DNA from: a virus
Strand: one strand, 5' to 3'
Virus record (IMG/VR): IMGVR_UViG_3300046003_005598
Span: 1 to 25,101 of that record
Length of the DNA stretch: 25,101 nucleotides
Shown here: piece after piece, positions 4,447 to 24,296 of the stretch
How the letters are laid out: every line of letters starts with the position of its first letter
Numbering within the stretch: the stretch's first letter is position 1
Translations under genes and position numbers: made by a program
Notes under the pieces: model-generated
Database searches by the model: none
Told to the model about the DNA's origin: nothing
What the model saw: the letters and a program-made list of their open reading frames with translations, nothing else

Positions 4447-5141
4447 ATTGTGATTAAATTATTCTTTTTTCTTTCGTTTTTATTCATTTTGGATTCGTGA
4501 ACTCCGTGATACACTAATGATTTTTTTACGTGATACAAAAATTTACCACTACTATTAAGTCTTTGGGTGATTTGATGACCAACACCAGAACTTATTAGCG
4601 GATCATTAATCCATCTTTTTTCGCTAATCGCATTAACCCTATAATCAAGTAATTCAAAGAAATTCTTCTCACATATGAAACATAGGTCATTCCATTGTGT
4701 CCGCAAAACCTCACCTAAATCTTTTGGGTTTTTATAACCCCAATGTGATTTATTAACCCTATCGTCAGTTAATATACTTAAACATATTTTTTTAGTCGAG
4801 TCTATCGATTCGTATAATCTTTTGGTTTCATCAAAAAAGTTATCTACTAAAGAAATATCGTCAGGTAAATAAATAAAATACTTTGAATTTACGTTTTTAA
4901 CAAAACTAAAGGTTGCGTTGTATGTAACGTAATATTTCTTCTTACCCATATTTGGAAACATACCTATTTTAATAACATCTCTTCCTGACAAATCTATTTT
5001 TTCAGTCGACCCATCATCAAAGACCGCAACTAATATTTTATAATCTTTTTTATTACGATCAATATCGTCCAATAACTTATAAAGCATCTCCGATCTATTG
5101 TAGGTTGTAATTAAAACACAAAAATCATATTCCATAATCAT
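4443..5141 (-). CDS. Glycosyltransferase family 2-like protein, 232 aa
   Basis: A compact GT2-like enzyme. The N-terminus has the family signature CVLITTYNRSEMLYKLL, then VAVFDDGSTE (nucleotide-binding DDGS) and FIYLPDDISLV (metal site in the DxD position, PDD, near residue 97). The C-terminal SSGVGHQITQRL and YHGVHESKMN provide His residues near the usual acceptor site. There is no transmembrane segment. Two ATG codons lie close together (5141 and 5135); the first overlaps the stop of the upstream gene in an ATGA junction and is preferred. It forms one operon with the neighbouring glycosyltransferases. Confidence 0.82.
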   Translation of the reverse strand: MIMEYDFCVLITTYNRSEMLYKLLDDIDRNKKDYKILVAVFDDGSTEKIDLSGRDVIKIGMFPNMGKKKYYVTYNATFSFVKNVNSKYFIYLPDDISLVDNFFDETKRLYESIDSTKKICLSILTDDRVNKSHWGYKNPKDLGEVLRTQWNDLCFICEKNFFELLDYRVNAISEKRWINDPLISSGVGHQITQRLNSSGKFLYHVKKSLVYHGVHESKMNKNERKKNNLITI

Positions 5142-5758
5142 ACCCCTAATATTGAATTACATTTATTAATAAAGAATACATCTTTTTTACCGAACCTAGA
5201 TTCAAATGCGTGGTACGTATTGTTACCATATGTTGTTCCATACCCAAAACTATGATTCTCATCAAGTTTAACATTTGGTATTTCAGCGTGATTAGGAAAT
5301 AATAAATTAATTGACATCTCATTTTCCGTCGCAATGTGAGAAAGTTCTCCAGCACAATCCGATCTGTTAGTCGTATTGAAGGATGGTCTCCCTAACTCAT
5401 TATATGTTCTTATACTAAAAACTAAGAATGATGGTGCCGCAAAAATAAATTTGTTATGTGGTGGTTTTAATTTAGAAGCCACTTGAGCATTACCAAATAA
5501 TCCAACGTTATTTTTAGCCCATTCAACTGCAAGTGGTATTATTTTTTTATTTAATGGTATTGCATCAATGTCAAATAAAACAATTATCTCTTCAGGGTCA
5601 TATATGTCTTTCAAATAATTGTCAACCGCATCTCCGTGTGTTGTCCAATTCTCAACCATAATTTGGTTAATTGTGAAACCATATTTATTAAAAACTTTTT
5701 GTTGTAAATCAACAACTAATGGTTTTATCTTTTTATCGTAAAATGTTATAATGTGCAT
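5138..5758 (-). CDS. Putative GT-A-like glycosyltransferase, 206 aa
   Basis: Not a clear match to a named family. The feature that points to a glycosyltransferase is the hydrophobic strand ending in a DxD motif, IIVLFDIDAIPL (near residues 59-70), where GT-A enzymes bind metal and nucleotide sugar. VGLFGNAQVAS and a later ENHSFGYGTTYGNNTYHAFESRFG could hold acceptor-side residues. The protein is small for the fold but complete in its reading frame. It overlaps its upstream partner, the GT9-like gene, through TAATG and its downstream partner through ATGA, so it is translated within the glycosyltransferase block. The context strengthens the call. Confidence 0.6.
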   Translation of the reverse strand: MHIITFYDKKIKPLVVDLQQKVFNKYGFTINQIMVENWTTHGDAVDNYLKDIYDPEEIIVLFDIDAIPLNKKIIPLAVEWAKNNVGLFGNAQVASKLKPPHNKFIFAAPSFLVFSIRTYNELGRPSFNTTNRSDCAGELSHIATENEMSINLLFPNHAEIPNVKLDENHSFGYGTTYGNNTYHAFESRFGKKDVFFINKCNSILGV

Positions 5759-6504
5759 TAACTTAAGTATTCATTAATATCTTTTATCCAACTTTCTTTT
5801 TGGGAGTATCTTGTATTTTTACCGGGGTTTTGATTTTTTATAAATGGAGTATCTTTCCAAAGTATTAAGAGATCTTTATTCATTGCACCAGCACAATGTG
5901 CTAATCCAGTATCGTTAGAAATAATCTTTTTAGCATCTCTCACTAATGATAATGATTTTCGGATATCACCAATTTCAATTCTATCACATATCTTTTCCAT
6001 CCAAGGATTTTGTTTCATATCTGATTCCGATCCCGTGAAATAAATTGGTAAGTTACTATTTTCTTTTATTAGGTCGTATATCTCTTCAGGTACTTCCTTC
6101 TTTCCGTACCATTTTGGTTTCGGATCATTATCGTTAAGTGATAACCCACCCAAACCATTTAATAACAATAAATAATCTCCGTTATTCTTTGGTATTTCAA
6201 TTGCGGGATCAACATATGTGTGGTATTTGTCAGTCCATTTTTCACCAACCATTAATTCAAATGTGTATTCGTAATCTGGAACATTTAGATTAATCATTTT
6301 TGAGGAGAACGTTGGTTCTCTTCGTAATTTACCTACGTGATTCATAAAATCACAATCAATAAAACAATCTTTAACGTAAGGTATTGTGAAAAAAACATCT
6401 ATTTTATGACCTACCTTTTCCGATAACCTTTTTATCCCTGGTGTTAACATTATAAAATTACCTAAAGCATAACCAGCGTTTTGTTCAATTAAAGGCATTC
6501 CCAT
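5758..6504 (-). CDS. GT9 (heptosyltransferase-like) glycosyltransferase, 248 aa
   Basis: A GT-B enzyme related to the ADP-heptose:LPS heptosyltransferases (GT9). The N-terminal GNFIMLTPGIKRLSEKVG matches the 'G(D/N)...TP.l..L...' entry motif. The C-terminal SLVRDAKKIISNDTGLAHCA carries the family hallmark (SNDTG.AH.A) that holds the donor nucleotide. The protein is somewhat shorter than typical bacterial members (about 320-350 aa), mainly in the N-terminal Rossmann half. An in-frame second ATG lies at 6498. The 50 bases upstream are AT-rich and gene-free and may hold a weak promoter. It could add heptose or a related sugar to host LPS or to a phage glycan; the true substrate is unknown. Confidence 0.82.
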   Translation of the reverse strand: MGMPLIEQNAGYALGNFIMLTPGIKRLSEKVGHKIDVFFTIPYVKDCFIDCDFMNHVGKLRREPTFSSKMINLNVPDYEYTFELMVGEKWTDKYHTYVDPAIEIPKNNGDYLLLLNGLGGLSLNDNDPKPKWYGKKEVPEEIYDLIKENSNLPIYFTGSESDMKQNPWMEKICDRIEIGDIRKSLSLVRDAKKIISNDTGLAHCAGAMNKDLLILWKDTPFIKNQNPGKNTRYSQKESWIKDINEYLS

Positions 6505-6554
6505 ATCTTTTTTTATTATAACTATAGGAAAAAATTAATTTTAATAAATTGTTT

Positions 6555-7112
6555 TTAGTGTCTAATGTTATAATAGATCTCAGGTGCAATTATAAAATTG
6601 TTCGTGGTATTTTGTAATTTATCGACAAACTCAAAATCTTCACCATCGTCATTAGTGTCGAATAACATATTAGGTATTGTAGTCTTAAACGATATTGATA
6701 TACCAACTCGGTTTCTAATAAGATTGTTTCTTGAAAGTTCGGGAAATATCTTACCGTCGGTTGTTTTCATTCTCCAAACAACAAAATCATATTGTAAGTA
6801 TTTTTCTACAAGTGTTTTAACATAATCTTCGTGTATTGTATCATCATCATCTAAGAATCCAATCCATTCTGTTTCACACATTTTAATCCCTTCATTTCTA
6901 ACTAACCCAGCATTTCCGTGTCTTTCCCCCTTTACTCCTAACTTTTCTATGTTGAATGTTCGTATTCTTGGGTCATTAAATTCTTTCCCGACAACTCCGT
7001 CGTAAAGAACAAAACAACTCCAATTTGGGTTAGTTTGATTAAGTAAGGATTGGATTGTATTGTCTATTGTGGGTCTATTAATCGATGGTATTATAAATGT
7101 AATTAAATTCAT
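6555..7112 (-). CDS. Short glycosyltransferase family 2 protein, 185 aa
   Basis: A clear GT2 catalytic domain: MNLITFIIPSINRPTIDNTI, then VLYDGV in place of the usual DDGS, a NAGLVRNEGIKM segment that matches 'G...ARN.GI', and EWIGFLDDDDTIHEDYV with the DxD metal site near residues 93-96. The usual acceptor-binding C-terminal part is very reduced; the protein stops shortly after a VVWRMKTTDG strand and a short tail. It may therefore be a minimal or partner-dependent enzyme. It sits at the upstream end of the glycosyltransferase block, seven bases from the zinc-binding gene before it. Confidence 0.85.
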   Translation of the reverse strand: MNLITFIIPSINRPTIDNTIQSLLNQTNPNWSCFVLYDGVVGKEFNDPRIRTFNIEKLGVKGERHGNAGLVRNEGIKMCETEWIGFLDDDDTIHEDYVKTLVEKYLQYDFVVWRMKTTDGKIFPELSRNNLIRNRVGISISFKTTIPNMLFDTNDDGEDFEFVDKLQNTTNNFIIAPEIYYNIRH

Positions 7113-7119
7113 AAATGAC

Positions 7120-7422
7120 TTATTTTTTTCTCCCTTGACAATGAGCCTTCTGACTAAAACCTTTTGGGTTTTTACAATTTATTGATTTTTTATATTTTTC
7201 AGACCATTTTTCCTCAATAGGATCTTTAGATAATTTCTTCTTCCAAAACTTATAAAGATTTTCTTTGTCATATTTTTGTTCCTTCAGGTCCCAACCACAA
7301 TCGTGGCAAAGGTATGGATGTCTATCACCCTCCTCTTTATTCCAAGAGTGTTCACATTTCTCACAAACAATCTCGTCTTTGAATATTCTATCCGCCTGCT
7401 TTTCTGTTAGTATTATTTTCAT
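7120..7422 (-). CDS. Small tagged zinc-binding protein, 100 aa
   Basis: The chosen start, at 7422, gives MKIILTEKQADRIF, the shared leader peptide of this region, and follows the upstream stop directly (TAATATG). A longer frame back to 7440 would overlap the neighbour. Residues about 20-45 hold two CxxC pairs (CEKCEHSW and CHDCGW) that form a zinc ribbon. The C-terminus reads INCKNPKGFSQKAHCQGRKK, which contains two more Cys and a basic end; I recall similar 'NPKGFSQKAHC' tails on small phage proteins, but cannot verify this here. No catalytic function is visible; nucleic-acid or protein binding is plausible. Confidence 0.75.
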   Translation of the reverse strand: MKIILTEKQADRIFKDEIVCEKCEHSWNKEEGDRHPYLCHDCGWDLKEQKYDKENLYKFWKKKLSKDPIEEKWSEKYKKSINCKNPKGFSQKAHCQGRKK

Positions 7423-7423
7423 A

Positions 7424-7759
7424 TTAATCACAATTTCCATCTTCTTCCCATAAATTAACTAAATAATTATAGTACTTATTATTTAGGTATGTTTCAACTT
7501 CTTCTCTAACCTCAATCATTTCATCAGAAGGTTCTCTGTAATCCTCATCATCTTCATCACAATAATTTTCATCACAATAATAAAAACTAATTCCTTGGTT
7601 TATACAAAAATCCGCATATTCTTCACCATCATCAAAATTACAAGGATCTTGTATTTCAGTTTGATACTCAATTATATCACTTATTTTATCAAGTTCCACA
7701 CCTCTTCGTCTGAACCTTAAACTCATCATTTGATTTTCACTTATTATTATTTTCATCAC
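7424..7759 (-). CDS. Small tagged acidic hypothetical protein, 111 aa
   Basis: It begins MMKIIISENQMMSL, a member of the shared leader family (MK-I-I-I-S-E-x-Q). The rest is unrelated to its neighbours: a short basic stretch (RFRRRGVELDK), then a very acidic body with Cys residues (DPCNFDDGEEYADFC and YYCDENYCDEDDED). The four Cys could bind a metal, but spacing does not match a known finger. Its ATGATG start overlaps the stop of the upstream tagged gene. Function unknown. Confidence 0.7.
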   Translation of the reverse strand: MMKIIISENQMMSLRFRRRGVELDKISDIIEYQTEIQDPCNFDDGEEYADFCINQGISFYYCDENYCDEDDEDYREPSDEMIEVREEVETYLNNKYYNYLVNLWEEDGNCD

Positions 7760-8127
7760 CAGTTAAAGTCCTCTCTTGTATTTATTGAATTAAGTAGTTT
7801 TAACTTAAAGTTCCCTTTCCCTAAATATTCTCTCAAATGATATTCTAACTCATAGAGGAATCCACCAACATCTAACGATTGAAAAATAGTTTCGTAATAA
7901 ACAATAATCGATATTTCAATCATATTGTTTGTTTTATACACATTTACAACTTCAACTTTTGAAATTGACTCTATTTGATCACAAACATCAAAACTAATAA
8001 TCTCAGGGGCATCGGCGCCAAGTTCGTTCATCTTATTACATTTTTTTTTGATATCGTCAAATGACATATCAACCGTATTTTGAAATGTTATAGTTTTTAA
8101 TTGTGATTCTGTAATTATTATTTTCAT
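7756..8127 (-). CDS. Small tagged hypothetical protein, 123 aa
   Basis: The longest frame starts at 8190, but the ATG at 8127 is better: it forms an ATGA overlap with the stop of the upstream gene and gives MKIIITESQLKTI, the clearest example of the shared leader. After the leader comes a mixed alpha/beta protein of about 100 residues (ISKVEVVNVYKTNNMIEISI, then a C-terminal helix LYELEYHLREYLG). No known domain is recognised. It is expressed as part of the row of tagged genes at 7120-8675. Confidence 0.72.
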   Translation of the reverse strand: MKIIITESQLKTITFQNTVDMSFDDIKKKCNKMNELGADAPEIISFDVCDQIESISKVEVVNVYKTNNMIEISIIVYYETIFQSLDVGGFLYELEYHLREYLGKGNFKLKLLNSINTREDFNW

Positions 8128-8675
8128 ATCTCCACGTAATACACTAAAACCTTTATTCCCGTTCTCGGATATATTAATGAGTTTAAACAATCTTGTATAA
8201 CTCCACTTACTTCACCCTGTATCTCAAATCCAACCTCATCATCATTCAAAGCATCTTCTAAAGATAAGTGTCTACCATCCATAGTGGTAACAGATCCCCC
8301 TTCTGATACTTGACACTCTATTTTATAAACATCATCTTTTACGTAAACATTAGTGATTCTCCAATCAAAGTCATACCCACCAACAAACATTTCAGGAAAA
8401 TCTTTTGTTGAGAAGTTATTAATTGATAAGTTATCAATTATTTCCATAGTTTTTTCTTCTCCGCCAATGTAATCATTGAAGAACTCACCATAGTCCCTAA
8501 TATCCGTCCATCTATCTATACCGAAATAACCTAAGATATCTTCATCAAAAGTCGGGTAACCTTTCTCTTTAGTTTGTTTATCCCACATTTTTTTAAGAAT
8601 TTCGGATTTACGAGTGGGTTTGTTTGAACTCTCAATCACCATTCTCATTTGAGATTCCGTGATAACTATTTTCAT
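8124..8675 (-). CDS. Tagged hypothetical protein, 183 aa
   Basis: It starts MKIVITESQMRMVIESS, again the shared leader, followed by a short basic linker (NKPTRKSEILKKMW). The body (residues about 30-183) has two helical stretches and several strands (WRITNVYVKDDVYKIECQVS, then EVGFEIQGEVSG) ending LIYPRTGIKVLVYYVEI. No motif tells its function. The pattern of leader, polar linker and unrelated body resembles the other tagged proteins. Starts and stops overlap its neighbours by four bases on both sides. Confidence 0.75.
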   Translation of the reverse strand: MKIVITESQMRMVIESSNKPTRKSEILKKMWDKQTKEKGYPTFDEDILGYFGIDRWTDIRDYGEFFNDYIGGEEKTMEIIDNLSINNFSTKDFPEMFVGGYDFDWRITNVYVKDDVYKIECQVSEGGSVTTMDGRHLSLEDALNDDEVGFEIQGEVSGVIQDCLNSLIYPRTGIKVLVYYVEI

Positions 8676-11042: not shown

Positions 11043-11396
11043 TTAATCTTCAAACTCCAACTTTTTAGTTCTTGTTACCCAAGTAGGTCTCTCACCTGAT
11101 ATTAATATTTTCATCCACTCTGATGCCGAAGGAATGTGTCCGTCACAATCTTCTTTTACGTGTTGTTCCCCAACATATCTTGTGTAAACAATCTTCCCAT
11201 CACTATTTATAAACTCAGACCCAAACTTTTGTTCCATTTCAAATATCCCCTCTGAATGGTGTCTGAAGGCTCTATGTAAGGAATGTCCGTACCAACCCTT
11301 ACTCTCATCTAACCAATTGTGTAGATGTATATAATCTTCCCATTTTCCGCCAAACTTTTTGGCTGAACTTTTTGAATGTAGGTTTGGATGTGCCAT
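11043..11396 (-). CDS. DUF6915-like conserved protein, 117 aa
   Basis: The pattern MAHPNLHSKSSAKKFGGKWEDY, HNWLDESK, HRAFRHHSEGIFEMEQKFG, NSDGKIVYTRYVGEQHVKED and IPSASEWM matches a small His-rich family that I know as DUF6915, found in bacteria and phages. Function is not established. The conserved His residues (H35-like HLHNW, HRAFRHH, GEQHV) could bind metal. Length is typical. It starts at the base where the upstream stop ends (TAATG overlap), and is followed by a TATAAATA-bearing gap. Confidence 0.8.
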   Translation of the reverse strand: MAHPNLHSKSSAKKFGGKWEDYIHLHNWLDESKGWYGHSLHRAFRHHSEGIFEMEQKFGSEFINSDGKIVYTRYVGEQHVKEDCDGHIPSASEWMKILISGERPTWVTRTKKLEFED

Positions 11397-11713: not shown

Positions 11714-12463
11714 ATGGCTTTAGATCAAAAAAAATACAAGATTTTTACAAAACAAATATACAATCATATAATTGACGATCAAGGTGAAAACTATCTTTTT
11801 AATCCTTCAAAAATTTACAAAGAAATCACTGATGATGAATTTCTACAGATTTTAACCCAAAGAGTTACAAACACAGATAAAATTAGATTATCATTTATGG
11901 TTTATCTATATGATTTGGAGGGTGATGTTGATCAATCGGTTAACGATGTTTTAAATCAATTTACTATTATTGAAAGTATGATCTTTAGTGAATTGGGTAG
12001 TGGATATTTTACGTGTCCCGAATGTCAGGGTAATGGAGCGTTTGATTGCAATGAATGTGACACTAATGGTGAATCCACTTGTGATCTTTGTGATGGATCG
12101 GGTGAAGATGAAACTGGTGATCCTTGTTATGGATGTAATGGTGATGGGGGAGTTACTTGCGGTAATTGTTCTGGAAGTGGGTTAGAAAATTGTGATGAAT
12201 GTGGAGGTTCAGGTGAGGTTGAGAGTGAAGATTTGTTTTGGGAAAAGAAACTTCTAATAACGTACACTTTAAATGATGAATTAAGAAATTTAAAGTTAGG
12301 GACTTCATTAAGTAGTGAAGAAAGTGACGAAATAGAGAGTCCACCATCAATTAATCAAATTAAAATATTAGATTCTTACGTTCCTTACAACGATCCTTTT
12401 CAAGAATATGATATAGATGAAAAAAACCCAGATTCTATCTGGGTTGTTATTTCAGTTCGTTAA
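11714..12463 (+). CDS. DnaJ-type zinc-finger protein without J domain, 249 aa
   Basis: Residues 101-167 hold six CxxC motifs in a row (101, 112, 123, 138, 149, 160), most followed by the x-G-x-G pattern of the DnaJ cysteine-rich domain (CPECQGNG, CDLCDGSG, CNGDGG, CSGSG, CGGSG). DnaJ itself has four CxxCxGxG motifs binding two Zn; six would allow three sites. There is no J domain (no HPD motif). Residues 1-95 are a helical domain of unknown type, and the C-terminal 80 residues are acidic and beta-rich. It may act as a holdase-type or assembly chaperone. It is one of only two rightward genes here, with its own Shine-Dalgarno-like leader. Its last codons overlap an intrinsic terminator that serves the opposite strand. 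Confidence 0.85.
   Translation: MALDQKKYKIFTKQIYNHIIDDQGENYLFNPSKIYKEITDDEFLQILTQRVTNTDKIRLSFMVYLYDLEGDVDQSVNDVLNQFTIIESMIFSELGSGYFTCPECQGNGAFDCNECDTNGESTCDLCDGSGEDETGDPCYGCNGDGGVTCGNCSGSGLENCDECGGSGEVESEDLFWEKKLLITYTLNDELRNLKLGTSLSSEESDEIESPPSINQIKILDSYVPYNDPFQEYDIDEKNPDSIWVVISVR
12420..12445 (-). terminator. Intrinsic terminator for the leftward operon
   Basis: AACCCAGA (12425-12432) and TCTGGGTT (12438-12445) form a perfect 8-bp stem with a 5-nt loop. Read leftward, the stem is followed by seven U residues (A-tract 12420-12426). It lies 15 bases beyond the stop of the gene at 12460-12942 and inside the last codons of the convergent zinc-finger gene. In the rightward direction there is no U-tract. 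Confidence 0.8.
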
Positions 12464-12972: not shown

Positions 12973-13470
12973 CTATTTGTTAATTAAATCTTTATCGGCA
13001 ATCAAAACAAGGTCATCATTAAAGGATGGGTAAATTTCTTTTATTTTACCATATATCTCAGGATAGTCAGACCAAACTTTCACCCCCTCGTTCTCAGGAC
13101 TATAATCATTATCAACTAAGTACTGAACAATAGTATTGTCTTCTATAGTGATAAATCCGTGGGCGAAGTATCTTGGTACATATATCTCATCACCTTCGTT
13201 CATCTCAAAGAAAAATACTTTATTATAATCTTCAGATACCCATCTAAGATCCACCACAAAGTCCAATATCTTACCACCAATGACTTTTATTAGTTTGGCT
13301 TGAGCGTACTCGTCCTTTTGAAAGTGCAACCCCCTTAACGTAAATTTCTGGGGGTTGACACTTACATTACTTTGAACCCAATTCTTATCTAACTTAGTAA
13401 GATCTAACGGACTAAAGGTTCCTCTTTTATCCATAAAAATTCTATTCTCAACTAAATGTGCCTTTTCCAT
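12973..13470 (-). CDS. rmlC: dTDP-4-dehydrorhamnose 3,5-epimerase-like protein (RmlC family)
   Basis: Cupin-fold sugar epimerase, which in L-rhamnose synthesis epimerises dTDP-4-keto-6-deoxyglucose at C3 and C5. The sequence shows NVSVNPQKFTLRGLHFQ with the catalytic His, then QAKLIKVIGGKILDFVVDLR, VPRYFAHGF and IVQYLVDNDYSPENEGVKVW, all in the usual order. At 165 residues it is slightly shorter than typical members (about 180). No RmlA, RmlB or RmlD is seen nearby, so it must use a host dTDP-sugar, act in a modified pathway, or depend on phage genes outside the window. It overlaps the upstream metallophosphoesterase gene through TAATG. Confidence 0.9.
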   Translation of the reverse strand: MEKAHLVENRIFMDKRGTFSPLDLTKLDKNWVQSNVSVNPQKFTLRGLHFQKDEYAQAKLIKVIGGKILDFVVDLRWVSEDYNKVFFFEMNEGDEIYVPRYFAHGFITIEDNTIVQYLVDNDYSPENEGVKVWSDYPEIYGKIKEIYPSFNDDLVLIADKDLINK

Positions 13471-14578: not shown

Positions 14579-15031
14579 CTATGGTTTTGTATAAAATTGT
14601 ATTTTGTTTTTGGCGTTTTCAATCAACCATTTATCAACGTAAGGTATTTTTTTTAAAAACTCCAATTCGTGTTGGTACGCAATGACTTCCTCCACATTTG
14701 GGTTCAAATTAAGGTTAGTTTTTAGGAGGTATAAATGTAATGATTCGTGAACGAGGATTGCCGAAATGTTATAGATATTACCATTATTCATTTCTTTGGA
14801 TGGTATTGTGATAACACTATCTGATTCTGTGGTTGAGAATCCCCCATTCCAAAAAGCAACTACCTTACACGTTTCCATAATAAGGTAGTACTTTTCTTTA
14901 TCGTATTTTTGTATTGTATCTAACGCTTGTTCGACTTTCCCTTTCCATCCATCACCAACATCCGTTATTTTTATTTGCCCAAATATTGGTGTGAAAGTGA
15001 ACATAACCAGTAAGAGTGTCCATATTCTCAC
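14579..15031 (-). CDS. Secreted HExxH putative metallopeptidase, 150 aa
   Basis: A Sec signal peptide (MRIWTLLLVMFTFTPIFGQ) should send this protein to the periplasm or beyond. The mature part contains ILVHESLHLYL with the zinc motif HESLH at residues 95-99, and a Glu about 16 residues later (NVEEVIAYQHELEFL) that could be the third ligand, as in gluzincins. It is short, so it is a minimal peptidase or an inactive relative. The family is not otherwise recognised. A secreted zinc peptidase encoded next to a secreted nuclease and adhesin-like proteins suggests action on the host envelope or outside the cell. ATGA overlap with the upstream gene. Confidence 0.7.
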   Translation of the reverse strand: MRIWTLLLVMFTFTPIFGQIKITDVGDGWKGKVEQALDTIQKYDKEKYYLIMETCKVVAFWNGGFSTTESDSVITIPSKEMNNGNIYNISAILVHESLHLYLLKTNLNLNPNVEEVIAYQHELEFLKKIPYVDKWLIENAKNKIQFYTKP

Positions 15032-15483
15032 GGTAATTTAATTGCTGCGTCGTGTATTGCTTTCTTCAATGCTGAAGACAATGTCATCTTCTCAAAAGGT
15101 ATCGATCCCTCTTGAACTTCAATAATAATTGCTCTAATCTCTGTGTCTGACTCACCCATCCCTTGGTAACAATTACCTTTATAATGAAGTTTAATTCCAA
15201 CTTGAGTTATTGTATTTGTTTTTTCAACACCAACAACTCTTATGGTTGTCTTAGGTAAACCAAAATAGTAAATTTCAACATCTATTTTATCCCCTTGTTC
15301 TGATAAACAATATTTTTCAGATAACTCATCCTCAACAATTTGTTTAACCCCAAAACGAATATCTCTATTACCAAGTTCTCTTAATTTCGCAGTCGAGTAT
15401 ACAGAATCAACAAATACACATTGTTGAGCTTTAGCGATGTTACCAAGTAGTAACATACCAAGTAGTAAGATTATATTTTTCAT
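15028..15483 (-). CDS. Exported small protein, possibly CsgG-like, 151 aa
   Basis: The signal peptide is MKNIILLLGMLLLGNIAKAQ. The mature part can be aligned by eye with the CsgG-like lipoprotein at 18665-19408. 'GVKQIVEDELSE' resembles 'GVTNIVIEYLEY'; a later 'TQVGIKLHYKGNCYQGMGES' resembles 'TRLGLQIKFVDAETSQV...GLGEAS'; and the ending 'SALKKAIHDAAIKL' resembles 'KKALETASSRVVSRL'. If real, this is a compact paralogue lacking the lipobox and the long insertions. Two Cys in the mature part may form a disulphide. The paralogy is inferred from pattern only; an unrelated periplasmic protein is possible. Confidence 0.6.
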   Translation of the reverse strand: MKNIILLLGMLLLGNIAKAQQCVFVDSVYSTAKLRELGNRDIRFGVKQIVEDELSEKYCLSEQGDKIDVEIYYFGLPKTTIRVVGVEKTNTITQVGIKLHYKGNCYQGMGESDTEIRAIIIEVQEGSIPFEKMTLSSALKKAIHDAAIKLP

Positions 15484-16073
15484 AATTTAATTTGGTATTT
15501 AGTAAAGTCGGTTGTTGATGGTTTCTCGTTTTTGAAATAGTATTTCTCGATTTTGTTTCCGTATTTAATTGTCTTATAATATCCGTCAGGTACCGTAGCT
15601 CCTGTTGGTAACACAATTGATTTGGTTGAATAAACACAACGAATTTCAACGATCACACTTTTATTTGTCTTCGCCAATTCTCTTTCTCTAACCTCTAACA
15701 ATCTCCAAGTAGTTCTATTTAAGTTCTCTTGTTGTAGTGAACAATTTAAGTATGTGAATGTTTTGAATAGTAATTCTTTAGTACAATTGAAATCTGCCGC
15801 GGGCGCTAAGTGCCCTTTATCATATGGGTTGTTCGCATAATCCTTATCGTCAGATGTCAGTATCGAATCACAAGTATAGAAATCCATACCTTTTCTTGGT
15901 GCGGATCCATTGGGACATTGTACCGTATAACGAATGAACTTTGGTTGTTGTAATTTTTCAGAATAAACAATCTCAAACATATCTGTTTTAATGTAGACGG
16001 AATCTCTTAACGCTTTCTGACTGAAAACAAATAATGGTAATGTTAATAATAATGTTAGTAATAAATTTTTCAT
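15480..16073 (-). CDS. Secreted DNA/RNA non-specific endonuclease (NUC1 type), 197 aa
   Basis: A signal peptide (MKNLLLTLLLTLPLFVFSQ) precedes a beta-beta-alpha-metal nuclease domain. PYDKGHLAPAADF at residues 83-95 matches the DRGH catalytic motif with R replaced by K; His 88 is the expected general base. TYLNCSLQQENLNRTTWRLLE matches the N..Q...N...W..LE metal-binding helix of the Serratia nuclease family. Such enzymes cut single- and double-stranded DNA and RNA and are active outside the cytoplasm. Cys 53 and Cys 68 may pair. Export would keep it from the phage's own DNA. Possible roles are digestion of extracellular DNA, nutrient recovery, or attack on competing phage DNA in the periplasm. 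Confidence 0.88.
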   Translation of the reverse strand: MKNLLLTLLLTLPLFVFSQKALRDSVYIKTDMFEIVYSEKLQQPKFIRYTVQCPNGSAPRKGMDFYTCDSILTSDDKDYANNPYDKGHLAPAADFNCTKELLFKTFTYLNCSLQQENLNRTTWRLLEVRERELAKTNKSVIVEIRCVYSTKSIVLPTGATVPDGYYKTIKYGNKIEKYYFKNEKPSTTDFTKYQIKL

Positions 16074-16074
16074 T

Positions 16075-17043
16075 TTAATATGATACGGTTGTTTTATACC
16101 CAGGAGCGATCAGATAATAGTTTTGTGATCCCCCACTTACAGGTGAGTTTATTGTTATTGATGACACACCAGGTATTGTTGATCTTAGATCTGATGTATT
16201 TGTCGTTAATGTTGTGTATTGTGCGGTTGTATATAATCTGGATGGACTCATATTAATCCAACCCCCTAATAAACCATATCGTCTAAGATTAATATAATTT
16301 TGATCGGCAACGTTTATTCTCCCATCATAGTTCACATCATATCTGTGGTAATGAATACTTTTAATTGGTGTAACACCTAATATTAATTTAGAAACTTCTA
16401 CCATATCCGTAGTTTGTAGTGTAGTTACCGGTGTTGGAGCATCATATTGTATGTACCACTCAACCGCAGGACTTGTCGGTTGTGAAAAGTTATAGTACCC
16501 CGATGAGTTAGTGTAAACCGTTTGATGTAACACCCAAGGGGTAAAAGTCACAATATATTCAAACTCCAAAACATATGGTAATGATGTGTTAGGTAAATCA
16601 TTCCATCTACCTCCTCCGACGAATTGAATGTAGTCCTCGTTACCGGCATTGTTTGGTTCTCCACTATTCCAATACGACCAAGAATAAGGTTCACCCGTAA
16701 CCCATCTCCACACACCTTCATTGACCTCATCGGTTAATCCGATCCACCCATTTGGCCAAAGGCTGAATAGGAAATTGTTTTCGGCTAATGATGTTGAGGT
16801 AACTAAATGTCCCCCCATATTAATACAGGCTTGTCTTGCGTCCGTCCAAGTCATTGACCCTGTTGATCTATAATATGAGTGCCCATTAAAGTTTTGTTGA
16901 TTGGTAAATCCATTCATTACCGGTGTTGTTCTTTTATACAACTTAACAGGTACATTAACCGCGCCTGTTCCATCCGCATTATAAATGTATCCCGAATATG
17001 TAAAGGTTTGAGTAAACCCCATAAACGGAATCACAAATAACAT
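16075..17043 (-). CDS. Exported C-type lectin protein with dockerin-like repeats, about 322 aa
   Basis: From the ATG at 17043: a short hydrophobic signal (MLFVIPFMGFTQ), an Ig/carboxypeptidase-regulatory-like half domain (13-39), a C-type lectin domain (53-162), the rest of the Ig-like domain (163-203), a dockerin-like segment (213-258, with DVNYDGRINVAD at 236-247) and a beta-rich end. The lectin domain has WIGL (100-103), EPN (129-131, typical of mannose-type Ca2+ sites) and WND (147-149). Only one of the usual Cys is kept. The signal lacks a charged start; GTG at 17082 or TTG at 17121 would add one, at the cost of overlapping the upstream gene. The non-lectin parts align by eye with the 636-aa protein at 20077-21987. 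It is probably a surface adhesin. No T9SS sorting domain is seen at its end. Confidence 0.82.
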   Translation of the reverse strand: MLFVIPFMGFTQTFTYSGYIYNADGTGAVNVPVKLYKRTTPVMNGFTNQQNFNGHSYYRSTGSMTWTDARQACINMGGHLVTSTSLAENNFLFSLWPNGWIGLTDEVNEGVWRWVTGEPYSWSYWNSGEPNNAGNEDYIQFVGGGRWNDLPNTSLPYVLEFEYIVTFTPWVLHQTVYTNSSGYYNFSQPTSPAVEWYIQYDAPTPVTTLQTTDMVEVSKLILGVTPIKSIHYHRYDVNYDGRINVADQNYINLRRYGLLGGWINMSPSRLYTTAQYTTLTTNTSDLRSTIPGVSSITINSPVSGGSQNYYLIAPGYKTTVSY

Positions 17044-17051
17044 TATTGTTA

Positions 17052-18668
17052 TTATTGTCCTACTAACATTCTTGCTCCACACGTTACCGTATAATTTAAA
17101 GCACTTGTTTTTAAATCCCAAGCACCACCTGCGTTTATGTTGAATTTGAACTTCTTTGTAATTTTAATATTTGTACCAATACTTGGTAACATCACATAAG
17201 GAGATTTCAATACAACATCATTATAGTAACTAACATACGGAGCGTAAACAAATAAATTCATTAATTTAACATCTATTCGTTTACCTATCCTCATATCGTA
17301 AGTCCCCCCAACAATTAATGCAGTCCCCAAAAATGATTCTCTATAAACATTTCCATAAGATACCGTCCCCATATAAAGAAGTTTAAGAGATTTAGGTTTC
17401 TTAAACGTAAACATTTGTCCTATTGCTACCGTACCGTATAATGACTTATTACCTTCAAACCCAATGGTTAGTGTTCCAGAACCAATCACAATTGATTTAG
17501 GTCTAATAAAAGCATAGAACGCAGTTATATTAGGACCTCTAAGGGCTGAAGTATAGTCACCTAAAACCCCCGAACTTCTTTTACCATCCCATCTCATTGC
17601 AGTATACCCACCTGTTACTTTTAACCCTGTATTCACTTCAGAATCTCTAAAGTTAAACCCAACAAAGTCACCACTAGCGACTATTGTGGGTTTACCACCT
17701 TCTTTACTAGTTGGGGTTGCCTTTACCGTTGTGGTTGCACCACCTGTTATATTTGTTTGTCCACCTTCTTCTTTTCCTGTTTCAGGAGTTTTATTTTCCT
17801 CAGGTTTATTACTTCCCGAACCAGTCCCGTTATTCCCTGCCCCACCATTAGACCCATTCCCAGGCTCACTACTACTATTTCCATTTCCACTTGTTGTTTG
17901 ATTGTTTATTGGTGTTTCAGTTGTTTGACCACCACCATTTGGTTCTGTTGTTTGAGTTCCCCCATTTATAGTCGGGTTAGTCGATTGATTTCCAGTTTCA
18001 TTTGATCCACCTTGAGTTGTAGTTCCTCCTGCTTGTGTTGGATTTTGAGTTCCAACATTTTGACTAGTGGTTCCATTTCCTCCGTTTGTACCTCCTTCAT
18101 TTGTTCCAGAAGTGGTTGTACCTCCTTGAGTAGAGTTACCTGTTCCATTCGTTTGATTTTGAGTATTATTGGTTGTGGTATTATTATTTGTAGTATTATT
18201 TCCACTTCCATTTTGGGATTTATTCCCCTTCTTATCGTTACCCTTTGAATTTCCATTCCCTGTATTATTAATAGTAGTTACAGACCCACCTATTAAATTT
18301 GTGGATCCCCCCGCTAAATCTGAGATTGTGGATAATGAATTAAGAATTCCGATTACGTTTAATGCTGTTCCTTGGGTTATGTTAATTGCCGTACCCAAAC
18401 CTATTATTTCAGAGCAAGGACTATTTGTTCCATATTGTGAAAATATGTTATTAGTCCAAGATTCAAATGTCCCGTTTGTAAAATCGTTTTGACTAAACGA
18501 TCCCGTTTCACCGTAGTATGAAACTATTACGTTTCCATTTATCGGTATGACTATAGTTTTAAGATTTCCCGTACAGGGATCAGAGTAACTATAATTGTAA
18601 GATTGCGCATTCAGGTTAAAGAACCCAAACACGCAATAAAACAATAATATGAATACATTTAGTTTCAA
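17052..18668 (-). CDS. Exported protein with long Gly/Asn/Thr-rich linker and C-terminal beta-barrel-like domain, 538 aa
   Basis: A signal peptide (MKLNVFILLFYCVFGFFNLNAQ) leads to a small N-terminal domain (residues 23-130) with two Cys, then a low-complexity segment (133-310) of G, N, T, S and Q, then about 210 residues (330-538) with alternating amphipathic strands and aromatic girdle residues, as expected for an outer-membrane barrel of about eight to ten strands (for example FVGFNFRDSEVNTGLKVTGG and TLTIGFEGNKSLYGTVAIGQ). I do not recognise a named family. The barrel could anchor the protein in the host outer membrane with the N-terminal part exposed. It overlaps the CsgG-like lipoprotein gene upstream by four bases, which suggests a joint role. 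Confidence 0.72.
   Translation of the reverse strand: MKLNVFILLFYCVFGFFNLNAQSYNYSYSDPCTGNLKTIVIPINGNVIVSYYGETGSFSQNDFTNGTFESWTNNIFSQYGTNSPCSEIIGLGTAINITQGTALNVIGILNSLSTISDLAGGSTNLIGGSVTTINNTGNGNSKGNDKKGNKSQNGSGNNTTNNNTTTNNTQNQTNGTGNSTQGGTTTSGTNEGGTNGGNGTTSQNVGTQNPTQAGGTTTQGGSNETGNQSTNPTINGGTQTTEPNGGGQTTETPINNQTTSGNGNSSSEPGNGSNGGAGNNGTGSGSNKPEENKTPETGKEEGGQTNITGGATTTVKATPTSKEGGKPTIVASGDFVGFNFRDSEVNTGLKVTGGYTAMRWDGKRSSGVLGDYTSALRGPNITAFYAFIRPKSIVIGSGTLTIGFEGNKSLYGTVAIGQMFTFKKPKSLKLLYMGTVSYGNVYRESFLGTALIVGGTYDMRIGKRIDVKLMNLFVYAPYVSYYNDVVLKSPYVMLPSIGTNIKITKKFKFNINAGGAWDLKTSALNYTVTCGARMLVGQ
17738..18272 (-). repeat. Low-complexity coding tract (Gly/Asn/Thr-rich linker)
   Basis: This stretch codes the linker of the 538-aa exported protein with short imperfect units such as GGTTTQGG, GGTQTTEPNGGG and NNTTTNNTQNQ. 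There is no exact long tandem repeat, but the biased composition keeps several other frames open and so creates spurious ORFs on the opposite strand. Confidence 0.7.
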
Positions 18669-19408
18669 TTTTTAAATACTCCTTTTGTGATAAGTCGACT
18701 CACCACTCTTGAAGATGCTGTCTCTAACGCCTTCTTTGTTGTTATACCAATAGTTGATTGGTTAAATTTAACATCATCTGAGATGTCCCCCAATATTGTT
18801 GAGGTCTTTACCGTACTTGCCTCACCCAATCCTGATCCAACGATCACTTGACTTGTCTCAGCATCTACGAATTTAATTTGTAATCCTAATCGTGTTGTTT
18901 GTGTTGTTGTCTGTTGTCCGTTAACTTTAACAACCTCATCCTCCGATACACTGAAGTCATATACCTCAATGTATACAAAGTATTTTGCTAAGATTACATT
19001 TCCTTTTACATCAATCTTATTAACTGAAATTCCTTTATCAGAAGCTTTGTCCTGAGCAATCATTCGTTGTTTGATGTCTTCTTTTTCTTCGGTAAAAACA
19101 AATCTACCCGTATACTCTAAATACTCAATCACAATGTTTGTTACACCTAAACCAACTCGTTTGTCTTTAAGTTCAGGATATAACTCATACAACTCCTCAT
19201 TAATACCAATCTTTAATAATTGGATGGGAACTTGTATTGTATCAGTATAATCTGACACATCATTGATAGATTGCTTCTTCTCAAATTCAGCTTGATATTG
19301 TTCAGTTTTCACAGAACCAATACCCCCACTGGTTTGTGGGGGCTGAGCTTGTGTTGTTTTACAACTGAATAAACTAAATATTGATAGTATGAATACTACT
19401 TTTTTCAT
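18665..19408 (-). CDS. CsgG-like outer-membrane lipoprotein, 247 aa
   Basis: A lipoprotein signal (MKKVVFILSIFSLFSC, lipidated Cys 16) precedes a CsgG/HfaB-type domain. Signs are VGLGVTNIVIEYLEYTGRF, VFTEEKEDIKQRM, a strand ILAKYFVYIEVYDFSV, then RLGLQIKFVDAETSQVI and a closing helix TKKALETASSRVVSRLI. CsgG forms the nonameric outer-membrane pore that exports curli subunits in enterobacteria, with relatives in many Bacteroidota. Here there is no curli subunit (CsgA/B) in view. The length, 247, is close to that of CsgG (about 260 mature). It overlaps the barrel-protein gene (ATGA) and the holin-like gene (TAATG). The export cargo, if any, may be one of the neighbouring exported proteins. Confidence 0.78.
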   Translation of the reverse strand: MKKVVFILSIFSLFSCKTTQAQPPQTSGGIGSVKTEQYQAEFEKKQSINDVSDYTDTIQVPIQLLKIGINEELYELYPELKDKRVGLGVTNIVIEYLEYTGRFVFTEEKEDIKQRMIAQDKASDKGISVNKIDVKGNVILAKYFVYIEVYDFSVSEDEVVKVNGQQTTTQTTRLGLQIKFVDAETSQVIVGSGLGEASTVKTSTILGDISDDVKFNQSTIGITTKKALETASSRVVSRLITKGVFKN

Positions 19409-19692
19409 TATCCGATTTCTTCCTCTTCTTCTTTAGTTGCAGTTTTACCCGATAAGTACTTATCAACAGATGCAATACCAAAAGAACCTAAAGTAATCCA
19501 CAAAAATCCGTCATAGATGAATTGGTTAATTGGCATTTCTTGTCCGTGAAAACCAGTCCAAATATCCACACCAAGACACACCACCATCATTAAAAATGAT
19601 CCAAATCCTACTATTGATTTTTCGTTTATATCATTTTGATCCATAAACATTCTTACTAAGAATGATTTCTTTTTTGTTTTCTTTTCTGCCAT
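19408..19692 (-). CDS. Small two-helix membrane protein, holin-like, 94 aa
   Basis: The N-terminus is basic (MAEKKTKKKSFLVRMFM), followed by two hydrophobic segments (about residues 27-45, SIVGFGSFLMMVVCLGVDIW, and 58-77, FIYDGFLWITLGSFGIASV) and an acidic tail (KEEEEEIG). Size, two helices and charged ends fit a phage holin that would let the endolysin at 22144 reach the cell wall. It sits between a lipoprotein gene and another small membrane protein, so a scaffold for the exported cassette is also possible. Its leader, with no Shine-Dalgarno, is A-rich: AATAAACAAATAAATAAAACAAAAATG. Confidence 0.6.
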   Translation of the reverse strand: MAEKKTKKKSFLVRMFMDQNDINEKSIVGFGSFLMMVVCLGVDIWTGFHGQEMPINQFIYDGFLWITLGSFGIASVDKYLSGKTATKEEEEEIG

Positions 19693-19719: not shown

Positions 19720-20052
19720 TTACCAAGATTCTTCTTCAACCTTTTTTGGTTTTTCAGGTTGTGCTTGTGTTGTTGACGGTTTTTCAACTACTCGTTCAAT
19801 TACGTGAGTTCCTCCACCATTTTCAACTTTTTGTTTATTCTCTTGATTTTGTTGAACGTTTACAATAACAGGTTGACTTGCCGGTGCTACTTGTTCAGTT
19901 TTAGTTTCCTCAGCGGATTCATCTCCACCTCCGAATAATAATGTACTCACCCATACTCCACCACCAGCAATTACGGTAGTTAAAGTCCCGATGATTGTTT
20001 TTTTCAACCCTGACCAAGTTCCGTCATTGGTCTCTTGCGCTTCTTCTGACAT
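19720..20052 (-). CDS. Single-pass membrane protein with disordered tail, 110 aa
   Basis: Residues about 18-42 (KKTIIGTLTTVIAGGGVWVST and the next few) form one transmembrane helix with a Gly-rich end. After it comes a long polar, Gln/Glu/Pro-rich tail (about 43-110, for example QPVIVNVQQNQENKQKVENG and VEKPSTTQAQPEKPKKVEEE), probably disordered. There is no enzyme motif. It could be a holin or antiholin partner or an inner-membrane spanin-like protein of the lysis set, or a membrane anchor for the exported proteins. Its leader closely resembles that of the next gene (ACAAATAAAAACAAAAATG), and both lie just after a stop codon. Confidence 0.55.
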   Translation of the reverse strand: MSEEAQETNDGTWSGLKKTIIGTLTTVIAGGGVWVSTLLFGGGDESAEETKTEQVAPASQPVIVNVQQNQENKQKVENGGGTHVIERVVEKPSTTQAQPEKPKKVEEESW

Positions 20053-20076: not shown

Positions 20077-21987
20077 TTATTGTTTAATTATTCTTTCGAA
20101 TGATGGAACTCCGTTCTCAACACTAAGTTTAACTATGTAAACCCCTGGTTCTAACTCACCTAAGTTTTTAGTGTAGTTATAAATCCCATCAGGTATTTGT
20201 GTGTCTAATATTGTAACTAACTTTCTACCAACTAAATCATATACCGATAGTGTTGCGTTTGTTGTCTCCTCAACTTTGAATGTGATTGTAACTTCGTCTT
20301 GATATGGATTAGGATATACTTCCATATTGTTATCGTTCAAGATGTTTCCACCTTCCATTTTTAATACCTGAAGGATTCCGTTAGTTGGTGTTAAAGACAA
20401 ATCACTTGAGTATGTAGTTCCAGCAAATTTTCTATTAGTGTACAAAGGACTTGCATCCCATAAGTTCTGTGGTTGTAACGCCAAGAATTGTATTATAACA
20501 ACTTGATTACCATCTTTTAATGTGTTGTCATTATTTGTAGGATCAAACCCTCCCCATTCAATCTCGTTGTCGTTAGGGTTAACGTATGAAATCCATTTCA
20601 TTGCCTCGGCTGATGATGTAATACCTTTAAATTGTAATAAGGTGTCATTGTATTTCAAACCAAATTGTAATGAACTTAATTCAATTCCATTTGTTATAAC
20701 ACTCACAGGAAGTTCAACTAAGTTACCAGCCTGAACTGAGATATTAGGAACATTTATTTCAATAGATTGTGTTGGGAAATCGTATTCCACTTTAGTGTCA
20801 ATAACATTGTATATTTGATTTTCTAAACCAGGTATTGGACCAACCACTACCTCAATAGGGGTTATACGAGCCATATTATATCCTGTCCCATTTGCATCAC
20901 CCGGTACCATCACATAATAAACAACTGAATCAGGTTGACCCGGTAGGATATCAAATGTAAAGTTAGTTACACCAGCAATTGATGAGGTGTAGTTAGTTGA
21001 CGAACCATTAATTGTCGTATATTCCGTTGACGTAAAGAATTTAACATCTTTTGTATTGTTAGGCCAAGATGTAAATCTTCCTGAAACTCTACCAAACACA
21101 CCCCAAACGTCTGAGATTGTTGTGTTGTTAGATCCGTTAACATCTGCAGTATAGTAATCAAACCCTGTCATTGTTCCGTTACCCAAAACCCATTGGTTTA
21201 TTAATTGAGCATCTGTTGTTGATACAACATTACCAACACCCATAGTATCTCCTTTAACAGCTAAACGAACGTCCCAATATGTCGTATCCAATGGAACCGA
21301 AATATTAAAGTCTCCGTTATTATCCGTAACATAAACAGAATGTTGTGTCCAAGTTGATCCACCTGATGGTTTTTTCTCTAACGCTAAAGTTAATGTTTTA
21401 GCTCCTGTACCAGTTACGTTTGTAAATGTTCCGTGGTAATCAAAGTTTACAGGTGTAAACACACCACCATAGTTATGAACACTCAAAGTTGTATCCATAC
21501 CATCTTGTTTTGCGGCGTATGGTGTAAACGTTTGAACTCCTGTCCAAGTTAAGTTACTTATTGTTGATAAGTTATTAAATGTTGATGCTGGAGCGTGAGT
21601 AAATGTGATTAAGAATTTTTCACCGTTTGGTATAGTGTACGTAGAACTTGGACCAGTGTAACTTAATGTCATTGTAATGTAACCATTCGCAGTGTTAGTC
21701 ACATATTGAAGATCTAAGTTTGTTGTTGATCCTATCAAAGATACCGTTGCATTTGTAAATGCTACCTTATCATAAAATACTCTAAGCTGAACCCCAGCGA
21801 ATTTTGTTAGGGTTGTATTTTGTAGTGTAATTTTGGCGGTTGTTGACCCTTGTGCTGAAGTCCCAATCTGATATTGAGACGCAATGATACCCCACAAACC
21901 ATTAGATGGTGCTGAAGGTACTTGTGATAACCCTATAAAAGGTAGTGATAATAACATTGTAAGGATTAACCCCTTAATTAATTTCAT
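20077..21987 (-). CDS. T9SS-targeted cohesin/dockerin-like surface protein, 636 aa
   Basis: Order of parts: signal peptide (1-22), a first cohesin-like beta domain (about 30-175), an Ig-like domain (182-250), a dockerin-like segment (253-303, with VSTTDAQLINQWVLG and ADVNGSNNTTISDVWGVFG), a beta module (305-375), a second cohesin-like domain (about 405-545, INVPNISVQAGNLVELPVSV and LSSLQFGLKYNDTLLQFKGI) and a T9SS type A sorting domain (557-636: VYPNPYQDEVTITF, then SVYDLVGRKLV, and the end GVYIVKLSVENG). T9SS cargo crosses the outer membrane of Bacteroidota through the SprA pore and is anchored or released, so the phage would use the host T9SS. The gene is the first of the leftward cassette. 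Cohesin and dockerin modules bind each other with Ca2+; here degenerate loops make binding uncertain. Confidence 0.85.
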   Translation of the reverse strand: MKLIKGLILTMLLSLPFIGLSQVPSAPSNGLWGIIASQYQIGTSAQGSTTAKITLQNTTLTKFAGVQLRVFYDKVAFTNATVSLIGSTTNLDLQYVTNTANGYITMTLSYTGPSSTYTIPNGEKFLITFTHAPASTFNNLSTISNLTWTGVQTFTPYAAKQDGMDTTLSVHNYGGVFTPVNFDYHGTFTNVTGTGAKTLTLALEKKPSGGSTWTQHSVYVTDNNGDFNISVPLDTTYWDVRLAVKGDTMGVGNVVSTTDAQLINQWVLGNGTMTGFDYYTADVNGSNNTTISDVWGVFGRVSGRFTSWPNNTKDVKFFTSTEYTTINGSSTNYTSSIAGVTNFTFDILPGQPDSVVYYVMVPGDANGTGYNMARITPIEVVVGPIPGLENQIYNVIDTKVEYDFPTQSIEINVPNISVQAGNLVELPVSVITNGIELSSLQFGLKYNDTLLQFKGITSSAEAMKWISYVNPNDNEIEWGGFDPTNNDNTLKDGNQVVIIQFLALQPQNLWDASPLYTNRKFAGTTYSSDLSLTPTNGILQVLKMEGGNILNDNNMEVYPNPYQDEVTITFKVEETTNATLSVYDLVGRKLVTILDTQIPDGIYNYTKNLGELEPGVYIVKLSVENGVPSFERIIKQ

Positions 21988-23570: not shown

Positions 23571-24296
23571 TTACTTTACACCCATTACTTCTTTTTTATA
23601 GTATTCTTCAAACCCATCTAAGTAGTTCGTAATACTTTTGCTGTTATCTACACCAATAACCTCATCAATTAACCCAAAAGATAAAGCCTCATCTGAAGTA
23701 TACCATCTATCTCTTGATGAGAAATCTAAAACTTCTTGGAATGTTTTCCCACAATTCTCAGCTAATATCTTAAATAAGATGTAGTTGTATTTCTCACCTT
23801 CCATTTGGTCAATACGAGTGTCTTGGATATTTCCTCGTGTTCCGTGACTAACTTGGTGGGTCATTACTTTTGAGTGGATAAGTGACGATCTTTTACCTTT
23901 TGTCCCTGATGATAATAGAACAGATCCCATTGACGCACACATACCCAAGTTTGTTGTAACGATATCTGAACTAACGTAGTTCATTAAGTCCACAATACCA
24001 AGTCCACACATAACAGATCCACCAGGACTATTAATGTAAAGGGTGATGTCTTTCTTTTCAACCGAATCTAAAAACAATAATTGTGCTTGGACGATGTCTG
24101 ACATATGTTGGTCTACCGGACCTGACAACCAAAGTATTCTATCTCTCATTAATCTTGAGAAGATGTCCATTTGAGTTACTCTCATTTCTCTCTCTTCCAA
24201 AATATATGGTGTTAATCCATTCTCAAACTGATCCAACGCCAGTGAACTAATTCCTTCGCTCTTTGCGAAACTTCTAAACTCTTTTCCGTAATCCAT
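23571..24296 (-). CDS. clpP: ClpP-type serine protease, 241 aa
   Basis: S14 family peptidase. INSPGGSVMCGLGIVDLM and LGMCASMGSVLLSSG contain the catalytic Ser 122, SKVMTHQVSHG the His 147 and SSRDRWYTSDEALSFGLID the Asp 196, all in normal order. The length (241) exceeds E. coli ClpP (207) mainly through an N-terminal extension of about 40 residues (EFRSFAKSEGISSLALDQFE), which might be a propeptide or a partner-binding part. Phage ClpP-like proteins are known as host-ClpX partners and as head-maturation proteases; here no capsid gene is near. It lies between a small unknown gene and a basic protein. It is intact, so an active protease is likely. Confidence 0.93.
   Translation of the reverse strand: MDYGKEFRSFAKSEGISSLALDQFENGLTPYILEEREMRVTQMDIFSRLMRDRILWLSGPVDQHMSDIVQAQLLFLDSVEKKDITLYINSPGGSVMCGLGIVDLMNYVSSDIVTTNLGMCASMGSVLLSSGTKGKRSSLIHSKVMTHQVSHGTRGNIQDTRIDQMEGEKYNYILFKILAENCGKTFQEVLDFSSRDRWYTSDEALSFGLIDEVIGVDNSKSITNYLDGFEEYYKKEVMGVK

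Follow-up and report, generated by a model that had tools for sequence, protein, structure and literature searches.

Gene A, the 636-residue protein on which the earlier note had focused, is part of a conserved module of six genes, which the note had missed and which is present across hundreds of phage sequences of T4-type and crAss-like lineages. The window (the whole stretch of DNA analyzed here) is an entire IMG/VR viral record of 25,101 bases and carries the module on its minus strand. Our best reading, which we regard as probable, is that the module encodes a cellulosome-like lectin scaffold that would be placed on the infected cell by way of the host T9SS. The conserved six-gene module appears to be new; phage T9SS cargo and phage CsgG genes were already known.

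Domain architecture of gene A

The open reading frame proposed for this protein is real, with the same coordinates on the minus strand, while the region read on the plus strand contains 61 stops. The following features were assigned to it:

20077..21987, minus strand: gene A, T9SS cargo with cohesin and dockerin domains (636 aa)
21925..21987, minus strand: signal peptide, residues 1-21, followed by Q as in the Bacteroidetes Q-rule (from sequence; rule, PMC5837995)
21454..21918, minus strand: cohesin-like domain 1, residues 24-178, weakly assigned (PF00963 sub-threshold, 5/6 relatives)
20872..21447, minus strand: dockerin module, residues 181-372, common to gene E (hhalign)
21061..21255, minus strand: dockerin-like core, residues 245-309, with the DVNGSNNTTISD loop (ScaB dockerin profile match)
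20398..20778, minus strand: cohesin domain 2, residues 404-530 (PF00963; type I cohesin fold)
20080..20331, minus strand: T9SS type A sorting domain, residues 553-636 (TIGR04183; PorU CTD fold)

The signal peptide described in the earlier note was recovered from the sequence, with cleavage predicted between MKLIKGLILTMLLSLPFIGLS and the Q that follows it. Two cohesin-like domains had also been claimed, and the second of these is secure: cohesin 2 matched PF00963 at E 6.3e-7 (30.1 bits vs a gathering score of 24.1), and a PF00963 cohesin was present in 28/29 representative A relatives. Although the AlphaFold model of gene A has a low mean confidence (mean pLDDT 54.8), its cohesin and CTD regions are better, and residues 407-529 showed a type I cohesin fold (Z 13.4). 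Domain 1, when isolated, had Cohesin as top match in 5 of 6 domains (E 0.0009-0.015, 15.9-19.8 bits) but fell short of the PF00963 gathering score (24.1 bits) in the tested domains, and is therefore termed cohesin-like only. No similarity between cohesin 1 and cohesin 2 of gene A was found by profile comparison.

The dockerin-like segment is supported at the level of the family, while the proteins of the window itself remain under the Pfam gathering score. The A-family profile matched the ScaB dockerin 4uyp_B (E 8.3e-4) over residues 245-309, covering both repeats, of which the first has a degenerate loop, and Dockerin_1 was found in 17/29 representative relatives (best E 7e-4). Four residues of this core (D282, V283, N284 and D293) are invariant among relatives. 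Weaker matches of the same profile were to the cohesin 6kg8 (E 0.05) and the T9SS CTD 8glj_D (E 0.06). Residues 181-372 as a whole form an Ig-like plus dockerin module, and this middle part of A aligned with the C-terminal module of gene E at an hhalign probability of 99.7% (E 1.1e-25, 149 columns).

Profile searches bore out the C-terminal type A sorting domain; the lack of such a match, one of the two outcomes by which the earlier note would have been refuted, was thus not observed. TIGR04183 matched residues 557-636, last residue included, at E 1.7e-13 and 50.3 bits vs a curated cut-off of 23, and PF18962 matched at E 9.4e-11 and was present in 29/29 representative A relatives. The T9SS CTD fold is a seven-stranded Ig-like sandwich, and the CTD model of gene A (residues 554-636, moderate confidence) superimposed on the CTD of the T9SS protein PorU (6za2) with Z 8.9 and rmsd 2.3 over 81 residues. 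P559-N-P561, F570, D584, G587, G601, Y605, G615, Y617 and L621 are invariant in A relatives, and a dN/dS of ~0.07 for the CTD indicates purifying selection. TIGR04183 matches numbered exactly one per record in 26/26 phage records tested, a recurrence of the sorting domain in the A family that is far beyond chance. The sorting domain alone is common in bacteria, whereas the whole A protein is not.

With the profile match and the viral context both holding, a host-type export tag on a phage protein is well supported. The curated family match and its conservation indicate that A is very probably exported by the host T9SS through this domain, as the earlier note had supposed, and the tag is also found in a cultured phage. 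In addition, Q followed the predicted cleavage site (by a crude pattern) in 52/60 distinct relatives of A, in 36/36 of gene F and in 11/11 of the NUC1-type nuclease described below, and agreement with the Q-rule in most exported module proteins fits a Bacteroidota host. T9SS sorting domains are sometimes species-specific (PMC11285876), which counts against the export reading.

Phage origin, linkage and conservation of the module

No capsid or terminase genes were found in the 25,101-base window, so that its phage origin is not decidable from the window alone. Rfam and tRNA scans of the window gave no matches, and a near-identity search against GenBank phages returned only a 330-base match in an endolysin region. 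The A protein family comprises 75 loci in IMG/VR, with identity down to 46%. The T4-type major capsid protein Gp23 was present in 11/27 A-bearing records and Terminase_6N in 11/27; long records reach 309 kb, some with a tail sheath, and on long contigs the module is set apart from the capsid and terminase genes. A bacterial chromosome, which the earlier note had named as the other outcome that would undo its proposal, is therefore not what the viral record and the capsid- and terminase-bearing contigs of its relatives represent. A second group of A-bearing records (97-126 kb) contained neither Gp23 capsid nor terminase, and is linked to crAss-like phages by a giant protein with relatives in 76 phage records, mostly crAss-like; this protein adjoins the module in three loci (L159, L171 and L178) at 88-94% identity. 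The module was also found in the cultured lytic Flavobacterium phage vB_FspM_immuto (Immutovirus, NC_055915; here immuto) as gp012-gp019.

A pattern-based scan of 84,980 species genomes recovered one full-length A relative, on a 16.5-kb contig (L078, RFPL01000028.1) of a Sphingomonadaceae MAG that carries the module together with the giant crAss-like-related protein. Given this giant phage protein, the contig is probably a misbinned phage, and no full-length relative turned up on a bacterial chromosome. The family was absent at E 1e-20 from 395 sampled Bacteroidota genomes (a sample of the phylum), in searches where the A1 query detects the gene in a whole assembly containing it and A2 was run without such a control. 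The A family is a phage family rather than a recent host acquisition. Capture of a host gene was also considered for the family and rejected, with that single full-length relative in the 84,980 species genomes and none in the 395 Bacteroidota genomes.

Genes A to F occur in the order A-B-C-D-E-F and in one direction in 48/48 A loci with at least 6 kb of sequence downstream of A. Searches anchored on gene C, in three sets that partly overlap and include close relatives, so that the counts do not equal independent events, recovered 462 relatives in IMG/VR for gene C of the window (among the best 80 of the 462, tagged A in 64/64 loci whose upstream sequence was long enough, and all of D, E and F in 65/65), 123 relatives for C of the crAss-like group (full module in 44/44 loci with enough flank) and 113 for C of immuto (full module in 53/53 loci with enough flank). 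The lineages that carry the module are distant, with A identity falling to about 30% for immuto. The heptamer TATTTAT was observed within 150 bases upstream of gene A in 16/37 distinct loci vs 2.0 expected; it is a near reverse complement of the T4 late promoter and a possible phage promoter element.

In immuto, gene A is divided into two proteins. The first, gp014, comprises a signal peptide, a cohesin-like region and the dockerin module, and gp015 has its own signal peptide, a cohesin (E 5.9e-9) and the sorting domain (E 2.4e-8). This split was found in 17 immuto-type loci, with E shifted upstream of A. As gp014 and gp015 are fused elsewhere as A, they should, by fused-gene logic, act together. 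One further locus (L052, positions 11070-11090) has an in-frame TGA in gene A immediately ahead of MARLTP, at the point where the immuto-type split falls, and past the TGA lacks a second signal peptide. The stable split in 17 loci indicates that gene A can genuinely be interrupted there.

Genes B to F and other genes of the window

Downstream of gene A, the module and its optional neighbors were assigned as follows:

19720..20052, minus strand: gene B, small protein, a single hydrophobic segment at the N-terminal end, without signal peptide (48/48 loci)
19408..19692, minus strand: small transmembrane protein, holin-like by eye, in part of the family (24 loci; hydrophobic segment 24-48)
18665..19408, minus strand: gene C, predicted exported CsgG-fold protein, the most conserved gene (Foldseek; 462 IMG/VR relatives)
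17052..18668, minus strand: gene D, predicted exported protein with a Gly/Asn/Ser-rich middle (48/48 loci; from sequence)
16075..17121, minus strand: gene E, signal peptide, C-type lectin and C-terminal dockerin module (Lectin_C; Dockerin_1)
15480..16073, minus strand: NUC1-type DNA/RNA endonuclease, predicted exported, in part of the family (PF01223, E 3.1e-21)
15028..15483, minus strand: gene F, predicted exported short paralogue of C (hhalign; 48/48 loci)
14579..15031, minus strand: small HExxH protein, predicted exported, ILVHESLH (43 loci, sometimes inverted)

In a Foldseek search with the gene C model (pLDDT 67) the top matches were all CsgG (E 1.5e-8 to 4uv3, prob 1.00), and comparison of the model with CsgG gave Z 12.1 over 159-173 residues, above related folds of lipoproteins such as PelC and LptE. 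Gene C had neither a PF03783 match nor a PDB profile match to CsgG, and since the assignment is by fold it is named CsgG-fold rather than CsgG. A lipobox (FSC) is present in gene C of the window and absent in immuto gp017 and in one other locus (L060). Gene F aligned with gene C at an hhalign probability of 95.6% (E 1.2e-8). The C-terminal part of gene D appears, by eye, to resemble an outer-membrane barrel; a PDB profile search with gene D returned chance-like matches only. For gene B no family match was found. The NUC1-type nuclease occurs in 12 loci and as immuto gp012.

Gene E combines a Lectin_C domain (E 2.8e-14, residues 89-179, with EPN and WND motifs) with a Dockerin_1 match (E 0.0028). 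Among 19 relatives the N-terminal head is a C-type lectin in 16/19 (3 with a laminin-G insert), PA14 in 1 and other domains in the rest, so that the head is swapped while the C-terminal dockerin module stays constant. The variation of the heads gives the impression of diversifying pressure on the ligand.

Several other genes of the window were recorded. Five minus-strand open reading frames (7120-8675 and 1267-2196), one of them a phage lysozyme, share a leader at or near their start (MKIIITESQ, MKIILTEKQ, MKIIISENQ, MKIVITESQ and MKLSITEQQ); the leader pattern had 5 matches in the window, 1 in the record L005 and 0 in reversed sequences. These may be capsid-targeted internal proteins, as (I/L)-x-E resembles the rule for cleavage by the T4 prohead protease. 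Several consecutive glycosyltransferase-like genes and a dTDP-4-dehydrorhamnose 3,5-epimerase gene (2588-7112 and 12973-13470, minus strand) suggest that the phage may alter surface sugars too. A protein with DnaJ-like CxxCxGxG zinc-finger repeats is encoded at 11714-12463 on the plus strand, differing in strand from its neighbors, and a complete ClpP-type protease at 23571-24296 (minus strand) matches phage head-maturation protease families.

Proposed function, alternatives and relation to known systems

To account for this combination of domains, we propose that synthesis of A in the infected cell would be followed by Sec export (as the signal peptides suggest), by passage through the host T9SS with the help of the A CTD, and then either by attachment to the cell surface or by release from it. 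There A would act as a small scaffoldin, with E held on its cohesin through the dockerin module; in immuto the obvious bond would be the docking of the gp014 dockerin module onto the gp015 cohesin. For C, F and D we propose a place in or beneath the outer membrane, where they would assist the passage of E or D or keep the complex in position. That A and E are physically joined has, in our estimate, slightly better than an even chance. Cohesins and dockerins are also found in bacteria outside cellulosomes, which makes the pairing uncertain, and two properties of gene E count against a scaffold: its dockerin has one canonical loop only, and it has no T9SS sorting domain that would carry it across the outer membrane.

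The consequence would be an altered surface of the infected cell, in which T9SS-exported receptors are masked or competed with and other phages are blocked from adsorbing. Receptor masking as the purpose is, in our judgment, plausible but somewhat short of even. Flavobacterium columnare acquires phage resistance through mutated T9SS and gliding genes (PMC9233685), which implies that T9SS-dependent surface proteins matter for phage entry, and it is for this reason, the gain of resistance by loss of such genes, that masking or competition is favored among the possible purposes. A more speculative extension, which we offer as tentative and rather improbable, is a phage-specific surface organelle of hundreds of T4-type and crAss-like Bacteroidota phages, in which the T9SS cohesin scaffold and the CsgG-fold pore display exchangeable lectins in a cellulosome-like array, so that type VIII and type IX secretion are combined in one hybrid system. 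To our knowledge such a hybrid is not known from bacteria.

A different purpose for the same proteins would be lectin-mediated adhesion of infected or neighboring cells to each other or to surfaces, such that cells are aggregated or captured and progeny meet new hosts ('sibling capture'). The C-type lectin of gene E with its EPN and WND motifs would suit this, as would a CsgG-fold protein of the kind carried by phages for which capture has been proposed (PMC7029224); however, clumping was not seen with the CsgG-bearing phage Melnitz (PMC9004378), and variable E heads would equally fit varied ligands on the host's own envelope. We consider adhesion unlikely. An aid to lysis or egress, in which C and F form pores that act with the small membrane proteins and nearby endolysins while A and E loosen the surface layer, is more doubtful still. 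A GH19 endolysin is the divergent neighbor of A in the window and is encoded close to the module in many other loci, the crAss-like locus has an L,D-peptidase-like lysis gene upstream, and CsgG pores have been proposed as lysis regulators in Melnitz (PMC9004378). The place and strand of the endolysin nevertheless differ between loci, and lysis would leave the T9SS tag, the cohesin, the dockerin and the swapped sugar-binding heads unaccounted for.

Ig-like and lectin domains are frequent in phage adhesins, and T9SS CTD matches in general are often Ig-like sandwiches, so A might be conceived as a virion or tail-fibre part with borrowed cohesin and Ig-like domains and a sorting match that reflects only the Ig-like fold; the presence of signal peptides in A and in C to F, the margin of the TIGR04183 match over its cut-off and the distance of the module from capsid and terminase genes in long contigs make this very improbable. 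Finally, every domain is of bacterial type, but an origin of the contig as a piece of bacterial chromosome, or as a recent capture of one host gene, is hardly credible given its viral record, the capsid and terminase genes of related contigs, the single full-length relative among species genomes on a phage-like contig and the 0/395 Bacteroidota genomes, and for the family as a whole such an origin is already refuted.

The surface scaffold that we favor resembles several known systems in part. T9SS type A cargo genes were described for the 'Cryophage' of Bellas et al. (2020, PMC7468147), and T9SS cargo for the crAss-like BACON contigs of de Jonge et al. (2019, PMC6949934), so the route that the earlier note called unusual has precedents, and superinfection exclusion had previously been suggested for such cargo (PMC7468147, PMC6949934). 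What those contigs have in common with the present family is that phage genes encode T9SS type A sorting domains, together with the general idea that the host T9SS is put to use. They carry a variable set of several cargo genes (endoglucanase, GH39, PA14) or BACON proteins and were called a unique occurrence, whereas here one conserved cargo per record is found in the same six-gene module of two unrelated phage lineages. The likeness to cellulosome scaffoldins (CipA, ScaA to ScaC) lies in a cohesin protein beside a ligand-binding dockerin protein, in the type I fold of cohesin 2, in the ScaB match of the dockerin profile and in the surface anchoring proposed here. Unlike scaffoldins, A has cohesin and dockerin on one chain, and in place of an S-layer or sortase anchor and an enzyme partner there is a T9SS domain and a presumed lectin partner, in a viral setting.

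Partial curli (type VIII) operons are encoded by pelagimyophages (PMC7029224) and by the OM43 phage Melnitz (PMC9004378), and there too a CsgG-fold outer-membrane protein belongs to a conserved gene cluster that encodes exported proteins but lacks curlin subunits. Their hosts are Proteobacteria and they have CsgF, which was not identified here; in contrast, the present module has the short second CsgG-like protein F, and its genes for T9SS cargo and a dockerin-lectin always occur together. Immuto has a homologous module, and its deposited annotation names 'cohesin' and 'lectin C-type'; it differs from the window in that A is two predicted exported proteins, E lies upstream, and the T9SS tag and CsgG fold are unannotated. 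In the open-access literature we found no paper on phage cohesin-dockerin modules or on the combination seen in this module.

As immuto, which carries the module, and its host Flavobacterium sp. LMO8 are both cultured, the proposal is directly testable. If true, a phage would for the first time combine a CsgG-fold pore with cohesin-dockerin assembly and export by the T9SS, and large phages of the Bacteroidota, a leading phylum of bacteria in water and gut, would remodel the surface of the living host with a purpose-built, exported lectin scaffold. Testable explanations would follow for the presence of curli-pore genes in phages and for the way in which other phages may be excluded by infected Bacteroidota.
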